DNA from: Candidatus Neomarinimicrobiota bacterium | GTDB lineage: Bacteria; Fidelibacterota; SORT01 | DNA: 35,892 nt | NCBI GenBank assembly: GCA_022567655.1 | Contig: JADFGO010000012.1 | Location: 1-35,892, forward strand | Direction of reading: 5' to 3' | In this document: in pieces, positions 3,910 to 31,841 of the stretch | Layout of the letters: each line of letters begins with the position of its first letter | Numbering within the stretch: the first letter of the stretch is position 1 | Notes under the pieces: model-generated | What the model was told of the DNA's origin: nothing | Database searches by the model: none | The model's input: only the letters and a program-made list of their open reading frames with translations | Translations under genes and position numbers: made by a program

Positions 3910-4122
3910 TTGCCTACATACGAATACAGTTGTCACAATTGCAACCACAATTTCGACATATTTTTTAAGACGTTCGGAAGCGTCACAGATATTACCGTCT
4001 GCCCGAAGTGCAGTTCGGAACAAACTGAGAGGAGGATGTCCGTATTTGCCTCATCTGAATCTTCCGAGGCACAGGAATTTATGGGCTGTGGTCCCGGCTG
4101 TGGATGCGCTATGGATCAATAG
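3910..4122 (+). CDS. FmdB-type zinc-ribbon protein
   Basis: This 70-residue protein begins PTYEYSCHNCNHNFDI, the signature of the FmdB/CxxC_CxxC_SSSS family of small putative regulators. A zinc ribbon is formed by Cys8-x2-Cys11 and Cys34-x2-Cys37 (VCPKC). The tail is Cys- and Gly-rich (GCGPGCGCAMD) and could bind more metal. Translation starts at TTG 3910, preceded by GGAG with good spacing; no ATG fits, since the family starts at this Pro-Thr-Tyr. The biological role is poorly known for the whole family, although FmdB was named as a regulator of formamidase expression. It is followed by an inverted repeat and the UVR-motif gene. Confidence 0.85.
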   Translation: MPTYEYSCHNCNHNFDIFFKTFGSVTDITVCPKCSSEQTERRMSVFASSESSEAQEFMGCGPGCGCAMDQ

Positions 4123-4150
4123 TTAACGTTTATTGTAAAATAAATGTTAA
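4123..4150. repeat. Long AT-rich inverted repeat after fmdB
   Basis: TTAACGTTTATT and AATAAATGTTAA form a 12-bp stem with one G-U pair and a 4-nt GTAA loop, starting right after the fmdB stop codon. No U-tract follows, so it is not a classic terminator. It may stabilise the upstream mRNA, act as a protein-binding palindrome, or attenuate the downstream gene. Confidence 0.6.
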
Positions 4151-4192
4151 TTATCCGCTGAAATCGGTTCCATAAAGAGCTAAAACGATTAT

Positions 4193-4948
4193 ATGGATAT
4201 AAAGAACATATTAGACAAATGGCACTATGATCCGTACGGATTCTCAGTACGGCTTGTCGAAGGTACCGACGGAAAAGAAAAGATTCAGATAAGACTCGAT
4301 CTCGGCTTGCTCCAATTGGAGTTGGAAGGACGCCCTGACGGGACCAAACCGCATAACAAAGAATCGCTCCTCGATTATTATCTTGAAAAGATCGAAAATG
4401 CAGACAACAAAGGCGTAGAGGAGAGCGACATGGAATTGAGCATTGAAGAATGCGAGTTGCTGCGCCATGAAGCAATACAATATTACCATCGATACATAAG
4501 TCTCTTAGAACTTGAGAAATACCATGGTGTGATAAAAGATACCGAGCATAATATTGGTATACTCGATCTTATGAGCAGCTACGCCGAGGATAAATCCGAT
4601 TTTATGAGTTATGAGCAATTCCGACCGTATATAATCATGATAAATACTCTTGCGAGAGGCAGGTTAGCCTTAGAGAAGGATAAAGATGACGTGGTAATGA
4701 AGATAGTGGATAAAGGCATAGGCATGATAAACGAAGCAAGGGAGACTCTGGACTTGCAGGACTCATTATACGGTTTTAGGGAGATAAAATTTTTGGAAGA
4801 GTGGAAAACTGATATTTCATCCGATCATCCGCCGTCTGATCTTGAAAAGTTAGAGAATAAACTCGCAAGAGCTGTTCGCGGTGAGAAGTATGAATCAGCT
4901 GCGCTCCTCAGGGACGAGATTCACTTAATGAAAAAAATCAAGAAGTAG
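4193..4948 (+). CDS. UVR-motif (UvrB/UvrC-motif) protein
   Basis: This 251-residue soluble protein has, at residues about 218-250, a UVR helix-hairpin (LEKLENKLARAVRGEKYESA, then ALLRDEI), the short motif by which UvrB and UvrC contact each other and which also occurs in McsA and ClpC-type proteins. The rest is acidic and mostly helical, with no Cys zinc ribbons, so it is not McsA. The N-terminal 60 residues are beta-rich (KIQIRLDLGLLQLELEG). Proteins of this layout occur as uncharacterised UVR-motif proteins. The start is ATG 4193. It follows fmdB by 70 bp and probably shares its promoter. A role in repair or protease adaptation is inferred only from the motif. Confidence 0.7.
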   Translation: MDIKNILDKWHYDPYGFSVRLVEGTDGKEKIQIRLDLGLLQLELEGRPDGTKPHNKESLLDYYLEKIENADNKGVEESDMELSIEECELLRHEAIQYYHRYISLLELEKYHGVIKDTEHNIGILDLMSSYAEDKSDFMSYEQFRPYIIMINTLARGRLALEKDKDDVVMKIVDKGIGMINEARETLDLQDSLYGFREIKFLEEWKTDISSDHPPSDLEKLENKLARAVRGEKYESAALLRDEIHLMKKIKK

Positions 4949-12035: not shown

Positions 12036-12064
12036 TTGACATATTCGACAGAAGGATGTAACTT
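12036..12064 (+). promoter_or_regulatory. Promoter of the tRNA-Ala/SRP RNA transcript
   Basis: A perfect TTGACA at 12036-12041, a 17-bp spacer and TAACTT at 12059-12064 place transcription start near 12071, 8 nt before the tRNA. The -10 is weak, but the -35, spacing and position fit. It is the last plausible promoter before the tRNA. Confidence 0.55.
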
Positions 12065-12078
12065 CCATCCGATAAAAT

Positions 12079-12151
12079 GGGGCCGTAGCTCAGCTGGGAG
12101 AGCGCTGCGTTCGCAATGCAGAGGTCGAGGGTTCGATCCCCTTCGGCTCCA
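12079..12151 (+). tRNA. tRNA-Ala (anticodon CGC)
   Basis: A 73-nt cloverleaf folds fully. The acceptor stem GGGGCCG/CGGCTCC contains G3-U70, the alanine identity pair. The D arm is GCTC/GAGC, the anticodon stem CTGCG/TGCAG, and the loop TTCGCAA gives anticodon CGC (codon GCG). The T arm contains GTTCGATC. The discriminator is A, and CCA is not encoded (CAA follows). It is transcribed with the SRP RNA, which begins 3 nt later. Confidence 0.97.
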
Positions 12152-12154
12152 CAA

Positions 12155-12427
12155 GGCTGTGCGCGATGGGGAGGTAGCGGTGCCCTGTGACCGGCAATCC
12201 GCTGTAGCCGGATCGATGCCATGATCGAGGGCAGACTGATTTTGTATCTCCTTGTCGACACGGGTGTTGATGCATTTAGCCCTGCGCAATGGGAAGTTAC
12301 TGAACCCCGTCAGAACCGGAAGGTAGCAGCGGTAAGTTTACGACTTGTGTGCCGCAGACAGCTTGTGCGGAGCCTGTAACGTCAAGGCAGCTGTAGATGA
12401 TGCTGCTCGGAATCTGGTGCACAGCCG
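12155..12427 (+). ncRNA. ffs: Large bacterial SRP RNA with Alu domain (6S-like scRNA)
   Basis: The conserved S domain is present: ACCCCGTCAG, then CCGGAAGGTAGCAG with the GGAA-type loop at 12318-12323 that binds Ffh M domain. The 5' part, GGGGAGGTAGCGGTGCCC and GCAATCCGC at 12169-12202, matches the Alu domain of the Bacillus-type large SRP RNA. The 5' end GGCTGTGC (12155-12162) pairs with GCACAGCC (12419-12426), closing the long helix. The size, about 273 nt, fits the B. subtilis type. It directs nascent membrane and secreted proteins to the translocon with Ffh and FtsY. It is 3 nt downstream of the tRNA and has no promoter of its own visible; dnaX follows. Confidence 0.95.
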
Positions 12428-12433
12428 TTTTTT
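12419..12433 (+). terminator. SRP RNA 3' helix with U-tract
   Basis: The closing helix strand GCACAGCC ends at 12426 and is followed by six T at 12428-12433. The long terminal helix plus U6 can terminate transcription. The dnaX ribosome site begins right after, so dnaX must use read-through or an internal promoter. Confidence 0.55.
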
Positions 12434-12447
12434 AAAGGAACGTTAAG

Positions 12448-14106
12448 TTGTCATACTTAGTATTATCGAGAAAATACAGACCGCAAAAATTTGACGACGT
12501 CATCGGTCAAAAACACGTCACTCAGACGCTTCAGAATGCGCTGAAATCAGAGAGATTGTCACACGCATATATTCTTTCCGGACCGAGAGGCGTAGGAAAA
12601 ACCACGACGGCCAGAATACTCGCAAAATCTTTGAACTGCACGGAAGGCGAAATTGCGGAACCATGCGGAACCTGTGAAATTTGCAAAGAAATTACAGAGG
12701 GCCGCAGCCTTGATGTTTTGGAGATAGACGGTGCTACCTACAGGGGTATAGACAAAATCCGGGATGATCTTCAGGATTATCTCCGTCATCCACCGATGAA
12801 ATCCGAGTATAAGGTCGTAATCATCGATGAAGTGCATATGCTGACGAAAGAAGCGTTTAACGCCCTTCTTAAAACGCTCGAAGAACCTCCTCCGAACGTT
12901 GTGTTCATATTTGCGACCACGCAGCCGAATAAAGTGCCGCCGACTATCTTGTCGAGATGTCAGAGATTTGATTTCAAACGAATCCCGAGTGCGGACATAA
13001 TCGAGGCTCTTAAAGAAATATCCGCTAAAGAATCAATCAAAATTGATGAAAACTCCTTAATCCTGATTTCGAGAAAAGCAGATGGAGGCATGAGAGATGC
13101 CTTGAGTCTGCTCGATCAGGTGATATCGTTTTCGAACGGCGACATCGAATATAATTCCATAGTGTCGATGCTTGGTGTGGTGAAAGAGGAAGTGTTTTTC
13201 TCGATAACGGATTTGGCAACGACGGGAAATTCCGAAGCCGCAATGAATCTTGTTGAAGATCTGATGTCGCAGGGTCATGATCCACAAACTCTCGTCATGG
13301 GCCTGCTTGAGCATTTACGGTCATTATTAATCGTACATACTTCTCAATCGGCTGATTTATTAGAATCTACAAAATCGATCAAGGAGCTATATCTCACAAA
13401 AAAAGATGATCTGACGACATCGGAGATTCAAAGAACGTTAAAGATGGCACAGGATACGCTGTCGGAATTTTCAAAGAGCGTTATGCCGAGAATGTTATTT
13501 GAAATGTTGATGATAAATATCTGTAACATGGATAAAAGCATTGAAATCGAATCTATCTTAAACGAATTGGGATATTCAACTGAACAAAAAGATGATGCGC
13601 CAAAGGATGCGGATAGTAAAAATTCTGAATCGCTCAAATCGAAGGAATCGAATGAAGTGACGAGTGATACTTCACCTGCAGCTGACCCGGTAAAGAGGGA
13701 GAACAAAAACGAATCAAGGAATGAGAATACGAATATAAATGAATTTATGGACGTATGGAGATCGATCGTGGCGGAGGTTTCCGATTCGAGAGGCACGCTC
13801 GGGAACGTATTGAAAAAAGCGATCCCGACAGCGATTAACGGTAATTATCTCGAACTCTCGTTCGATCAAAGCGATGAATATGCAAAAGATTCGGTTGAAC
13901 ACAACTCAGGATATATTAGAGATGTCATGAAAAAGATCACAGACCGGGATTTGATTATCAAAACGGCGTTAGGGGAATTCAAAGAGAGCAAAATCGAGGA
14001 TATCGATCCCGGCGAGAGTGAAATTGTCAGCACCGATGAGGAGATTTCAAAGAATCCTACAGTAGAAAAGATTATTGACTTATTTGGTGGTAAATTAACA
14101 CTTTAA
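12448..14106 (+). CDS. dnaX: DNA polymerase III tau/gamma subunit (clamp loader)
   Basis: This 552-residue protein starts at TTG 12448, 8 nt after AAAGGA. It has the AAA+ clamp-loader core: Walker A GPRGVGKTT (residues 45-53), zinc ligands C64, C73, C76 and C79, Walker B VVIIDEVHM (123-131), and LLKTLEEPPPN with the sensor ATTQPNKVPPTILSRCQRF. Residues about 235-365 form the collar domain. A charged linker (about 370-440) joins a C-terminal domain for polymerase contact. The order SRP RNA-dnaX-ebfC-recR is widespread in bacteria. A run of seven A at 13398-13404 may support -1 frameshifting to a shorter gamma form; see the separate feature. Confidence 0.97.
   Translation: MSYLVLSRKYRPQKFDDVIGQKHVTQTLQNALKSERLSHAYILSGPRGVGKTTTARILAKSLNCTEGEIAEPCGTCEICKEITEGRSLDVLEIDGATYRGIDKIRDDLQDYLRHPPMKSEYKVVIIDEVHMLTKEAFNALLKTLEEPPPNVVFIFATTQPNKVPPTILSRCQRFDFKRIPSADIIEALKEISAKESIKIDENSLILISRKADGGMRDALSLLDQVISFSNGDIEYNSIVSMLGVVKEEVFFSITDLATTGNSEAAMNLVEDLMSQGHDPQTLVMGLLEHLRSLLIVHTSQSADLLESTKSIKELYLTKKDDLTTSEIQRTLKMAQDTLSEFSKSVMPRMLFEMLMINICNMDKSIEIESILNELGYSTEQKDDAPKDADSKNSESLKSKESNEVTSDTSPAADPVKRENKNESRNENTNINEFMDVWRSIVAEVSDSRGTLGNVLKKAIPTAINGNYLELSFDQSDEYAKDSVEHNSGYIRDVMKKITDRDLIIKTALGEFKESKIEDIDPGESEIVSTDEEISKNPTVEKIIDLFGGKLTL
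13381..13409 (+). promoter_or_regulatory. Possible -1 frameshift site in dnaX
   Basis: An AAGGAG at 13381-13386 lies 11 nt before A7 (13398-13404), whose zero-frame codons are ACA AAA AAA. A slip of -1 gives AGA then TGA at 13407-13409. A Shine-Dalgarno-like element about 10 nt upstream, an A-rich slippery site and an immediate stop are the known E. coli dnaX arrangement. Against it, the product would end at about residue 320, inside the collar domain, and no strong downstream hairpin is seen. Confidence 0.4.
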
Positions 14107-24644: not shown

Positions 24645-27260
24645 ATGAAATCGTCGAATGAAATCAGGGCGGAATTCCTAAAGTTCTTTGAGGACAGAGG
24701 GCATAAAATTGTTCCTTCCACTCCTGTCGTTCCAGCCGATGATCCCACGCTGTTATTTATCAATGCCGGAATGAACCAATTCAAAAACATCTTTCTCGGG
24801 ACGGAAAAAGTTAAGCACACAAGAATAGCGGACACTCAGAAGTGTATCAGGGTTAGTGGTAAACACAATGACCTTGAAGACGTAGGAATAGATACTTCGC
24901 ACCATACGTTCTTCGAAATGCTCGGCAATTGGTCGTTTGGTGATTATTACAAAAAGGAAGCCATCGAATGGGCGTGGGAACTTCTGACGGAGGTTTGGGG
25001 GCTGGAAAAGGAGAGGCTCTGGGCTACGGTGCACGAAACGGATGCCGAAGCGAAGAAGCTATGGCCCAAGGTTACGGAGCTGCCTCGTGAGAGAGTATTA
25101 GAATTCGGAGATAAAGATAATTTTTGGGAGATGGGCGAAATCGGTCCCTGCGGTCCGTGCTCGGAAATTCATTATTATATCGGAGATGATATTACCAAGC
25201 AATCCGCCGATAAAATTAACACGGACGATCCTGATTATATTGAAATTTGGAATCTCGTTTTCATCCAGTTCAACAGAGATTCTCAGGGTAGATTGAAAGA
25301 ACTTCCTCAAAAGCATGTGGATACCGGATTGGGACTTGAAAGGATTGTCTCGATCATACAGGATAAGCGGTCGAATTATGATACCGATTCTTTTTCTCCT
25401 ATCATAAATGAACTTGAGAAAATCACAAAAAAGAAATATAAGGGTGAAAATCAGCCGGCATTCAGAGTTATCGCAGATCATCTCAGGTCGCTCTGTATTT
25501 CAATAGCAGATGGAGTAATGCCGTCAAATGAGGGCAGGGGTTATGTCATAAGACGCTTGCTCAGGAGGGCAGCCAGGTTCGGAAGAACTCTCGGAATGGA
25601 AAAACCCTTCATTTATACGCTCGTGACTTCGCTGTCCGAAATGATGGGAGAGACTTTTCCGGAACTGATCGAAAAACAGGAGTACATTGAAAAAGTTATC
25701 AAAGCTGAAGAGGTGAATTTCGGCGAAACAATCGATAGGGGTATAGAGTTATTCGATTCGGTTGTAAGTCGGCTGGAAACGGAAAAGAAGAGCGTTATTC
25801 CCGGGAAGGATATATTTAAGTTATATGATACTTTCGGATTTCCTGTAGATTTGACGGAACTGATGGCGAAGGAAAAAGGATTAGGCGTGGATATTGAAAA
25901 GTTTAACGAAGAAATGGCATCCCAGAAGGAAAGAAGTCGATCCGGTAAGAAATTCGCCGTTGAAGAATTAATACCGGAAGGAGTCGAACTGAACTCTGAT
26001 CCAACGATTTTTTTAGGTTATGATACGCTTGAATCCGAAACGGAAATAACCCAGATTATATCTTTGAATAATAAGGATATATCGCTTTTACTTAAAGAAA
26101 CACCTTATTATGCGGAATCGGGTGGACAGATCGGTGATTCCGGAGTTATTAAGAACAAAGATATCAATATTCAGGTCAACGATACTCAAAAAGTCGGCGA
26201 TTCATATTATTTGCACATAGGAATAATTCTCGAGGGAAAGCCGAAGGAGGGTATGAAGGTTATCGTTTCGGTGGATGAAGACAGAAGAAAAAATATACTG
26301 CCCAACCATACTTCCACTCACCTGATGCATGCGGCGCTTAGAAAAATATTGGGCACTCATGTTCAACAAGCCGGTTCACTCGTAGCCTCTGACCGGCTGC
26401 GATTCGACTATACGCATTTTGAAAAACCATCGAAAAGTCTATTAAATGAAATTGAGAGTCTCGTTAACCGTAAAATTCGTGAGAACATTCAACTAAAGAC
26501 AAAAATCACGAATTTTGAGGACGCGAAGAAATCAGGAGCGATGGCGCTGTTCGGAGAAAAGTATGGAGACGAAGTACGAATGGTAGAAATCGGCGACTTC
26601 AGCAAAGAACTGTGCGGTGGAACGCACGTTGGAAGAACGGGTGATATCGGAATGTTCCTGATAACCCAGGAAACAAGTATATCATCGGGCATTCGCAGAA
26701 TCGAAGCGGTAACGGGAGTGGAAGCTTTCAAATATACTCAGGAAAATATGAATGTGCTTTCTGAAATTGAGGGAGAGCTCTCTACAAGTGGAAGCGAATT
26801 AGCTGAAAGAATCAGGAATTTATCAGATTCCAAAAAACAGCTGGAAAAGAAGCTGAAAGAAAAAGAAGTATCCTCTTATTTGTCAGAAATAGATTCATGG
26901 ATTTCGGAGGCGAGCGAGATTCAGGGCGTTACTCTGGTGGCAAAAATTATTGATTCATCTTCTGTTGATGAAATGAAAAGTATAGGAGATGCGCTCAGGG
27001 ATAAGTTAAAGAGCGGTGTAGGAGTTTTGGGTGCAAAGATTGATAACAAGGCGTCCTTAATTACAGTCATGACGAAAGACCTTATTGACTCTGGTCTGAG
27101 TTCAAAAGATATAGTAACCACATTGGGCAAAATTATAGGCGGAGGCGGAGGAGGCAGCGATCATATGGCTACCGCCGGAGGTAAAAACCCGGAATTATTA
27201 AAGGAAGCGATTGAAAAGTCAGCGTCGGTTCTGGAATCATTTCTAAAAGAAAAAGTATAG
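24645..27260 (+). CDS. alaS: Alanyl-tRNA synthetase
   Basis: This 871-residue enzyme has the class II catalytic start (FINAGMNQFKNIFLGTEK, residues about 38-55), the editing domain zinc site H555-x3-H559 (NHTSTHLMHAALRK) with C657 in CGGTH661V, and a C-terminal GGGGGGSDHMATAGGK in the C-Ala domain. The length is the usual for bacterial AlaRS. It charges tRNA-Ala, including the CGC tRNA at 12079 with its G3-U70 pair. ATG 24645 follows recX directly. Confidence 0.99.
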   Translation: MKSSNEIRAEFLKFFEDRGHKIVPSTPVVPADDPTLLFINAGMNQFKNIFLGTEKVKHTRIADTQKCIRVSGKHNDLEDVGIDTSHHTFFEMLGNWSFGDYYKKEAIEWAWELLTEVWGLEKERLWATVHETDAEAKKLWPKVTELPRERVLEFGDKDNFWEMGEIGPCGPCSEIHYYIGDDITKQSADKINTDDPDYIEIWNLVFIQFNRDSQGRLKELPQKHVDTGLGLERIVSIIQDKRSNYDTDSFSPIINELEKITKKKYKGENQPAFRVIADHLRSLCISIADGVMPSNEGRGYVIRRLLRRAARFGRTLGMEKPFIYTLVTSLSEMMGETFPELIEKQEYIEKVIKAEEVNFGETIDRGIELFDSVVSRLETEKKSVIPGKDIFKLYDTFGFPVDLTELMAKEKGLGVDIEKFNEEMASQKERSRSGKKFAVEELIPEGVELNSDPTIFLGYDTLESETEITQIISLNNKDISLLLKETPYYAESGGQIGDSGVIKNKDINIQVNDTQKVGDSYYLHIGIILEGKPKEGMKVIVSVDEDRRKNILPNHTSTHLMHAALRKILGTHVQQAGSLVASDRLRFDYTHFEKPSKSLLNEIESLVNRKIRENIQLKTKITNFEDAKKSGAMALFGEKYGDEVRMVEIGDFSKELCGGTHVGRTGDIGMFLITQETSISSGIRRIEAVTGVEAFKYTQENMNVLSEIEGELSTSGSELAERIRNLSDSKKQLEKKLKEKEVSSYLSEIDSWISEASEIQGVTLVAKIIDSSSVDEMKSIGDALRDKLKSGVGVLGAKIDNKASLITVMTKDLIDSGLSSKDIVTTLGKIIGGGGGGSDHMATAGGKNPELLKEAIEKSASVLESFLKEKV

Positions 27261-29225: not shown

Positions 29226-31841
29226 GTGTCAAACATGAACGATCAATTAGAAAAGTACTCCAAATCTTTAGAACAAAGTAGGCTTGAGATAAAAAAAACT
29301 CATTCCCGGGGAAGTACAGGTAATGAGACTTCAATCGCATTGACCGATTTAGCTGATGTTTGCCTAAGGGATCTAATTAAAGCGGAGGATATCAGTGACG
29401 CAATTATATCCGCTATCGGCGGATACGGAAGATGTCAGCTTTCACCATATTCGGATCTTGACTTGCTGATAGTACATTCTCAGAACACCGAATTATCGGA
29501 AGACTCAATAAAAAGTATTATCAGAACTTTATGGGATTTGGGATGGTCTGTCTCGAGTCTGTATCTGACCAGGGAAGAAATAACCGAAAAAGCGCACGCG
29601 GATATTCATTTTTTTTCATCTCTATTGGACTTAAGGATATTGCACGGCGACAAAGAAATATTAAAAGATCTACATACGGAGCTTTATGAAAAAGTATTTT
29701 CGATCGGATTCGAGAAATTCATGGATTGTAAACTCGAAGAAATAAACCGAAGACACATGAAATACGGAGCGACAAGCCGCATGCTTGAACCAAATGTTAA
29801 AGAGAGCGCCGGAGGCTTGAGGGACGTCCATTCTCTTATCTGGCTCAATATGAATCGTTCGATGCTTCCGTCGGTCAAACACGAAAAGGTTTATTCGAGG
29901 GTAGATTCTCATCTGAACGAAATATCAAAAGTCAGAAATTGGAATCCGTATCTAACCAAAAGATTAATTGAATCAAACGACTTGATGCTTCGAATAAGAC
30001 ATGAGATACACTATCAGAAGAGTGTGAAAAATGATCTCCTCGCGTTCGACGTCCGCGACAGTGTCGTGGAGAATTTGATCGTAGATGACACGGGGAATGG
30101 AATACATCGGTTCTTGAGAAACTACTATAAATCCGCAAGATATATCTCTAACGCTTTGAGGCACGCGGAAGAAGAAATAAGAGACGCAAAACTTACCTCA
30201 AAAAAATCTCCGGGGAAGCCGGTAAATGAATTAAATCATATTTATTCGGACGGTACCAGACTGTATTTGCCGAAAGAGAGTAGCGCCAAGTTCAGCGCAA
30301 GTATGACGGAGATAATGGAAATATTTCAGTATTCGAAAATAAACTCTCTACGACCCTCTTCAGGGCTTCTCTACGAAATAGAATCACGGCTTTTGGAGTA
30401 CAAGCCATCGTCGTCGGATTTGGCCAAATCGAGATCAATATTTATAGAGCTATTCACGGATCTGAATAATCTGGCGCCCATATTGAGAAATCTTTTTGAA
30501 ACAAGTGTAATGAATCTGTTGATTCCCGAACTGAATGATATTTACTGCCATGCTCCGAAAAGCAGGTACCACTATTATACAACCGATGAACACACGATGA
30601 GAGCTCTTGAGATTCTGGAGAAAGTCGCTTCCCTCGATAGTGTCGGAGAGCTGCATGACGTAATGAATAGATTAGAAAGAAAGCAGGAATTATTACTTGC
30701 ACTGCTATTCCATGACATTGCCAAACCTCACGAAAAAACCGAGTCAACCCATCAGGTCGAAGGCGCTGTCATCACAGGGGAAATATTGGAAAAAATAAAA
30801 TACGATGGAAACAAAGAACTGATTACGCGGCTTATTAAACACCATTTGCTGATGGAGCAAACCGCCTTCCGCCGGGACTTAGTCCTTCCGGAAACTATTG
30901 AGAAGTTTGTAAGCAAAATAATCGACCATGAAACACTCGACGCTCTCTATCTATTGACGTATGCGGACCTTTATGCGGTCAACCCGGTTGTGTGGTCCGA
31001 GTGGAAGCGATCGCTGTTAAGCGAACTTTATGGAAGGGCAAAAAATCATATTGATGGACATATTCAGATAGAAATCGACGAGGTAAGCCGCGGGTTGTTG
31101 GAAGAATTGGAAGATGATGTTGATAAGAAAAGTTTTTCTGACTTACTAAGCCTATTGCCTCCATCTTATCAACTGGAATTTGACAGCAGGCAGATTGCCA
31201 ATCATATTGATATGGCGAATAGGGTCGAAAAAGAAATAGTCGTAATTGAAAGCAAAGGATTATTCAATTTCAGCGAGATCACTGTTATCACTGCAGATAG
31301 GAAATATCTACTTTCAGATATCTGTGGTGTTTTCTCAGTGAACAATGCAAGTATCTTTGAAGCGAAAGTATTTACACGGAAGGATAAACTAATTATAGAT
31401 AATTTTCGCGTTATCAATTTAGGTGACGGCGGTCCACTTTCGGATGATGTTATAGTAAACATTCAACTCGATTTGACTAACGTATTGAAAAATCACATAA
31501 GTATAGATGATTTGCTAAAGCAGCACAAGAAGCGATGGAAATGGAAGGCGAAGAAACATCGCGAAATCCCACTCTATTTAGATTTCGACGAGTCTGAAAA
31601 TTATTCAATAATTGATATTACCGGAAGCGATTCGCCGGGATTGTTATACTCTATTACGAGAGCGTTATCAGAATTGAATATAATGATATACACTGCGAAA
31701 ATATCAACCAAAGTTGATGGATTGATTGATTCTTTTTACGTATTAGATGCAAATGGGAAAAAGATAGGAGTTGATGTGTCTGAAAATTCGATCCGGAAAG
31801 CCATTTCTGACGCAGTCCGGACTACTACTCATCTCACTTAA
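29226..31841 (+). CDS. glnD: [Protein-PII] uridylyltransferase/uridylyl-removing enzyme
   Basis: This 871-residue protein has a nucleotidyltransferase domain (GGYGRCQLSPYSDLDLL, residues 65-81), the GlnD domain with ESAGGLRDVHSL, an HD domain (H496-D497, LLFHDIAKPHEKTE) and two C-terminal ACT domains (about 682-760 and 795-865, GSDSPGLLYSITRALSELN). It uridylylates PII proteins when glutamine is low and removes UMP when it is high. GTG 29226 or ATG 29235 starts it. It runs into glnE with an 8-nt convergent overlap at 31834-31841. Confidence 0.95.
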   Translation: MSNMNDQLEKYSKSLEQSRLEIKKTHSRGSTGNETSIALTDLADVCLRDLIKAEDISDAIISAIGGYGRCQLSPYSDLDLLIVHSQNTELSEDSIKSIIRTLWDLGWSVSSLYLTREEITEKAHADIHFFSSLLDLRILHGDKEILKDLHTELYEKVFSIGFEKFMDCKLEEINRRHMKYGATSRMLEPNVKESAGGLRDVHSLIWLNMNRSMLPSVKHEKVYSRVDSHLNEISKVRNWNPYLTKRLIESNDLMLRIRHEIHYQKSVKNDLLAFDVRDSVVENLIVDDTGNGIHRFLRNYYKSARYISNALRHAEEEIRDAKLTSKKSPGKPVNELNHIYSDGTRLYLPKESSAKFSASMTEIMEIFQYSKINSLRPSSGLLYEIESRLLEYKPSSSDLAKSRSIFIELFTDLNNLAPILRNLFETSVMNLLIPELNDIYCHAPKSRYHYYTTDEHTMRALEILEKVASLDSVGELHDVMNRLERKQELLLALLFHDIAKPHEKTESTHQVEGAVITGEILEKIKYDGNKELITRLIKHHLLMEQTAFRRDLVLPETIEKFVSKIIDHETLDALYLLTYADLYAVNPVVWSEWKRSLLSELYGRAKNHIDGHIQIEIDEVSRGLLEELEDDVDKKSFSDLLSLLPPSYQLEFDSRQIANHIDMANRVEKEIVVIESKGLFNFSEITVITADRKYLLSDICGVFSVNNASIFEAKVFTRKDKLIIDNFRVINLGDGGPLSDDVIVNIQLDLTNVLKNHISIDDLLKQHKKRWKWKAKKHREIPLYLDFDESENYSIIDITGSDSPGLLYSITRALSELNIMIYTAKISTKVDGLIDSFYVLDANGKKIGVDVSENSIRKAISDAVRTTTHLT

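Follow-up and report, generated by a model that had tools for sequence, protein, structure and literature searches.

Genes for tRNA-Ala(CGC), SRP RNA, and DnaX are adjacent on one strand of the window (the whole stretch of 35,892 nucleotides analysed here), as located by ARAGORN, Rfam, and NF004046 (Table 1). The genes after dnaX are ybaB, recR, and pgsA. The source is a metagenome-assembled genome (MAG) of 2.14 Mb in 150 contigs, 96.6% complete with 3.85% contamination. Among named records, those of Candidatus Neomarinimicrobiota/Marinimicrobia (NCBI phylum Fidelibacterota) come closest, with a DnaX identity of 61-63%. Elsewhere in the window, the ORFs at 24645-27260 (alaS, alanine--tRNA ligase) and 29226-31841 (GlnD-like uridylyltransferase) are both exactly 871 aa long; the two are mutually unrelated and the equal length is a coincidence.

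Table 1. Features of the tRNA-SRP-dnaX locus in the window
Feature	Position	Strand	Basis and remarks
-35 element TTGACA	12036..12041	+	exact consensus; invariant in 5/5 family genomes
-10 element TAACTT	12059..12064	+	17 nt after the -35 element; 3/6 consensus bases in the window
tRNA-Ala(CGC)	12079..12151	+	ARAGORN and Rfam RF00005 (63.3 bits), both placing it at 12079-12151/12152; discriminator A73 at 12151
Linker CAA (3 nt, tRNA to SRP helix)	12152..12154	+	sequence; 12152 is the encoded C74
Large bacterial SRP RNA	12155..12426	+	RF01854 match at 12157-12424, plus two helix pairs
SRP closing helix, 5' arm GGCTGTGC	12155..12162	+	covariation, 5/8 pairs
SRP closing helix, 3' arm GCACAGCC	12419..12426	+	covariation
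Six-T run 3' of the SRP helix (possibly a partial terminator)	12428..12433	+	sequence; not conserved in the family
dnaX (DNA polymerase III gamma/tau), TTG start	12448..14106	+	NF004046, 531.8 bits (cut-off 400)

The tRNA gene encodes C74 directly after the discriminator but not C75-A76. The SRP RNA is of the large bacterial type: it matches the full length of RF01854 (Bacteria_large_SRP, model positions 1-256 of 256) with 136.6 bits, above the gathering score of 60 bits, and its two ends pair in a closing helix. It is the only RF01854 match in the source genome. Two G-C pairs beyond the Rfam match extend the closing helix out to 12155/12426. Across 18 distinct SRP sequences, 99.3% of the cells of the resulting 8-bp helix are paired, five of the eight pairs vary on both sides (compensatory), and the covariation score was reached by no shuffle. 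Shifting the partner strand abolishes the pairing. A helix start set too far 5' is ruled out by the covariation. Because the covariation fixes the start of the SRP helix, the 3-nt spacer is real. The initial annotation had placed the two RNAs 3 nt apart, with the tRNA ending at 12151 and the SRP 5' helix starting at 12155, and both positions agree with A73 and the extended closing helix; the end of the SRP RNA, given there as 12427, is corrected to 12426, where the helix ends. The predicted fold of a joint tRNA-SRP transcript was no better than that of shuffles (z of -0.11), making folding energy uninformative.

The tRNA-Ala(CGC)-SRP pair, which had been proposed as something to check in relatives, is kept 3-5 nt apart in all five genomes of the source family, from three genera and including two genomes that are 66-69% complete. 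The spacers are CAA, CGAGA, CAGA, CAAA, and CAAA (3, 5, 4, 4, and 4 nt). Given the fragmentation and contamination of the source MAG, the junction might be taken for an assembly error. The same junction is present in the four further family genomes as well as in named single-cell/MAG records (L002-L004, some possibly identical assemblies), so this explanation has practically no probability left and was rejected. Chance as the cause of the closeness was also rejected, as the junction is found in five genomes and a scan of 245 genomes from the phylum with a reversed control pattern gave zero matches.

Elsewhere in the phylum, the majority of families either have the tRNA farther from SRP (16-102 nt) or yielded no tRNA upstream, as several genomes did. 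The distance from the same tRNA-Ala(CGC) to the SRP RNA downstream is 23-26 nt in family f8, 50 nt in f11, and 102 nt in f9, and in family f4 the tRNA is found 5 nt before an SRP helix extended to 17 bp. Longer spacing in relatives, which the initial annotation had named as evidence against its reading, is thus seen in most of the phylum's other families, whereas the source family does not show it. In a pattern scan of the 245 genomes the tight form was found in family f1 only and forms of about 16-19 nt in f16 and f27; this pattern is strict and may miss further cases. At locus L088 (genome G007, about 1491-1778), a 17-bp SRP closing helix begins 5 nt after tRNA-Ala, and RNase III may act on this extended helix as it does on the scRNA precursor of B. 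subtilis. At locus L087 (G021, reverse strand), a sequence that looks like a decayed tRNA (GGGCTATAGTTTTGCTGGTAGAGTGTCCGG...) is found immediately upstream of the intact tRNA-Ala, between it and a promoter-like region.

The gene order itself is found far more widely. Outside the phylum tRNA-Ser(GGA)-SRP-dnaX is common (e.g., Binatia, Acidobacteria, Desulfobacterota-type, and other genomes). In 35 such tRNA-SRP-dnaX loci, 11-483 nt (median 45) separate the discriminator from SRP, and 13 of them have a gap of 25 nt or less; an 11-nt gap is common to five records, mostly Binatia. While the surveyed loci mostly have tRNA-Ser(GGA) at 11-483 nt, the window family has tRNA-Ala(CGC) at 3-5 nt, and this arrangement is an extreme case of a widespread gene order. 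Tight linkage occurs with differing tRNAs and with both SRP RNA sizes, and it may have arisen more than once. At locus L008 of a Deltaproteobacteria MAG, a group I intron match (RF00028, 72.4 bits) is located downstream of dnaX at 4037-4284. Borrelia burgdorferi has two tRNAs, srp, and dnaX-ebfC in this order (PMC9879097), and shares with the window both order and strand, with dnaX directly after the SRP RNA. The gene order is known already from bacteria (PMC9879097), and it is the 3-5 nt spacing before SRP RNA in a bacterial family that appears to be new. No report of a bacterial tRNA-SRP RNA co-transcript stated as such was found in the part of the open literature that the search covered.

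Upstream of the tRNA, the TTGACA element that had been reported at 12036 is located there, and it is followed by a -10 element at the same distance in all five family genomes (TTGACA-17-TANNNT). Four genomes have TAACTT as the -10 element and G001 has TATTAT; the first T, the A, and the last T are invariant. The hexamer pair has 9-10 of 12 consensus matches. Transcription is predicted to start near 12071. The initial annotation had argued that there is no room for an SRP promoter. This argument alone is insufficient, since a promoter inside the tRNA gene was possible, but no promoter-like sequence for an SRP-specific start was found. Promoters inside upstream RNA genes do occur. In Borrelia, for example, the dnaX promoter has been placed just within the end of srp (PMC9879097). 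If the SRP RNA were likewise transcribed from within the tRNA gene, the closeness of the two would reflect compact packing only. In the window, however, the best hexamer pair at the required place matches 5 of 12 positions and is among the lowest scores of the window, no -10 candidate combines A in position 2 with T in position 6, and this part of the tRNA has too high a G+C content for a -10 element. A separate SRP promoter is thus very unlikely, with the caveat that the scan uses an E. coli-type consensus, which may not fit Fidelibacterota. A single tRNA-SRP transcript from the TTGACA promoter, as first proposed, is well supported by the conservation of this promoter in all five family genomes and the absence of an SRP-specific one.

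The same lack of room applies equally to dnaX, whose start codon follows the SRP RNA after 21 nt (12427-12447). A scan of this gap found no promoter (best 7 of 12, constrained 3). The T run at its start is matched by just 3-4 T nearby in the family relatives. dnaX is probably on the tRNA-SRP transcript by read-through, or else is transcribed from within the SRP gene, as described for Borrelia (PMC9879097). The best reading of the locus is a tRNA-SRP-dnaX transcript, in which co-transcription, judged from the gene arrangement, almost certainly holds for the tRNA and SRP RNA and likely for dnaX.

We consider it likely that tRNA-Ala(CGC) and SRP RNA form one transcription unit, probably running into dnaX, in which the SRP 5' end would come from the linker cut that frees the tRNA. 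Comparative sequence supports the tRNA-SRP pair and its spacing, the promoter and the absence of a second one, and the helix boundary. RNase P trims the 5' ends of tRNAs. In the proposed pathway the sigma70-type promoter TTGACA-17-TAACTT would start transcription about 8 nt upstream of the tRNA, and the tRNA 5' end of the joint transcript would be trimmed by RNase P. An endonuclease would then cut the 3-5 nt linker at or just past A73/C74 and free the tRNA 3' end for completion by the CCA-adding enzyme, which is present in the source genome. The same cut would give an SRP RNA 5' end 2-3 nt ahead of the closing helix. An endonuclease is presumably needed, because 3' exonucleases maturing the dicistron would destroy the SRP RNA. 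If the tRNA 3' cut falls at A73 or C74, it follows that this cut makes the SRP 5' end; that tRNA 3' processing generates the end is plausible and probably correct. If RNase P or RNase E/G were to cut elsewhere in the linker, the SRP end would move by just 1-3 nt. Co-transcription itself, the linker cut, and its enzyme are what we infer here, and candidates for the enzyme are, in rough order, an RNase Z-like enzyme, RNase E/G, and RNase P.

In the source genome (G000), C74 is encoded in every tRNA gene examined (33/33 by ARAGORN, 30/30 by Rfam coordinates; loci L111-L140) and the full CCA in only one of 33, tRNA-Phe. In G018 (L161-L190), C74 is encoded in 35/35 tRNA genes and CCA follows the discriminator in 2/35. 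The encoded C74 may help recognition by RNase P or mark the stop of 3' trimming. In B. subtilis, CCA-less tRNAs are usually matured by RNase Z, which is stimulated by U within 2 nt of the discriminator (PMC10100781). The family linkers contain no U. Canonical full-length RNase Z was not detected in the five family genomes, all of which are incomplete MAGs or draft assemblies. Among genomes G000-G040 of the phylum, full-length matches were seen only in family f5, where they score 255-285 bits and so fall short of the strict cut-off of 293. The source family has at most a shorter RNase Z-like protein, which in G001 is located at L142 (1207-1974, minus strand). G001, G003, and G004 have a 257-codon frame matching the RNase Z model in two segments with the middle of the profile skipped, G002 has fragments, and G000 has none; the candidates L145 and L146 in G000 are other metallo-beta-lactamase-fold proteins only. 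RNase Z, one of the two processing enzymes first suggested, is weakened in its canonical form by these results. Together with the linkers without U, the undetected enzyme counts against the main reading, as does the weak -10 element of the window.

For RNase P, the other enzyme first suggested, the RNA is present (RNase III is also present). RNase P might cut directly before the SRP closing helix, leaving the tRNA with a 3-5 nt tail to be trimmed by exonucleases, and co-transcription would still hold. E. coli pre-SRP RNA is cut by RNase P in this way, and bacterial precursor tRNAs two nt apart are separated by it (PMC10731613); the family, moreover, has RNase P RNA and no canonical RNase Z was found in it. 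Yet the usual RCC(A)-like signal is not conserved 3' of the SRP helix, the flanks in the family being GTT, CAT, AAC, AAC, and AAC, and the closing helix is 8-9 bp before a branched domain, as opposed to the long hairpin of E. coli. Such a cut seems quite improbable here. A single-strand endonuclease of the RNase E/G type, found in four of the five family genomes, could instead cut the linker, which is A-rich and ends before a helix, with both new ends trimmed later. This is unlikely too: a 3-nt linker between two stable helices offers little single strand, and no specific signal was found. Turning back to the linker cut by tRNA 3' maturation, a stronger form of it, in which this cut, made not by canonical RNase Z but by another enzyme, alone releases the SRP RNA of the source family and ties SRP supply to tRNA maturation, is possible but doubtful.

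Among known SRP RNAs, E. coli 4.5S RNA is matured by RNase P (PMC10731613) and B. subtilis scRNA by RNase III (PMC3531473). Trimming of a precursor SRP RNA by an endonuclease is shared with the route proposed for the window. In the window, by contrast, the sole neighbour on the 5' side is a tRNA at a distance of 3 nt, and the family does not conserve the RNase P signal 3' of the helix. In the archaeon Methanothermus fervidus, as cited in PMC3035299, the 7S RNA gene is linked to tRNA-Ser and an rRNA operon; linkage of an SRP RNA gene to a tRNA gene is shared, while the rRNA operon context and the tRNA are different.

Precedents for a tRNA cut that makes the 5' end of the next RNA have been described (PMC3491384, PMC4247193). 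tRNA-sRNA dicistrons are matured by RNase Z in plants and Nanoarchaeum equitans (PMC3491384). There as here, a small stable RNA comes immediately after a tRNA, and a cut at the tRNA 3' end would create the 5' end of that RNA. The window has a tRNA without encoded CCA directly before a second RNA with no promoter between them, and the proposed mechanism resembles that of the plant and archaeal dicistrons (PMC3491384, PMC4247193). The window differs in having SRP RNA downstream and a bacterial host, and in that the search found no canonical RNase Z; the comparison is made at the level of genes.

As this gene order occurs widely and several groups have gaps of at most 25 nt, SRP end formation in bacteria could be tested in cultivable species. 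The locus raises the question of how tRNA 3' ends are finished where the genes mostly encode only C74 and canonical RNase Z was not found. If the proposed mechanism is true, an essential bacterial RNA other than a tRNA would receive its 5' end from tRNA maturation, as in the tRNA-sRNA dicistrons of plants and archaea.
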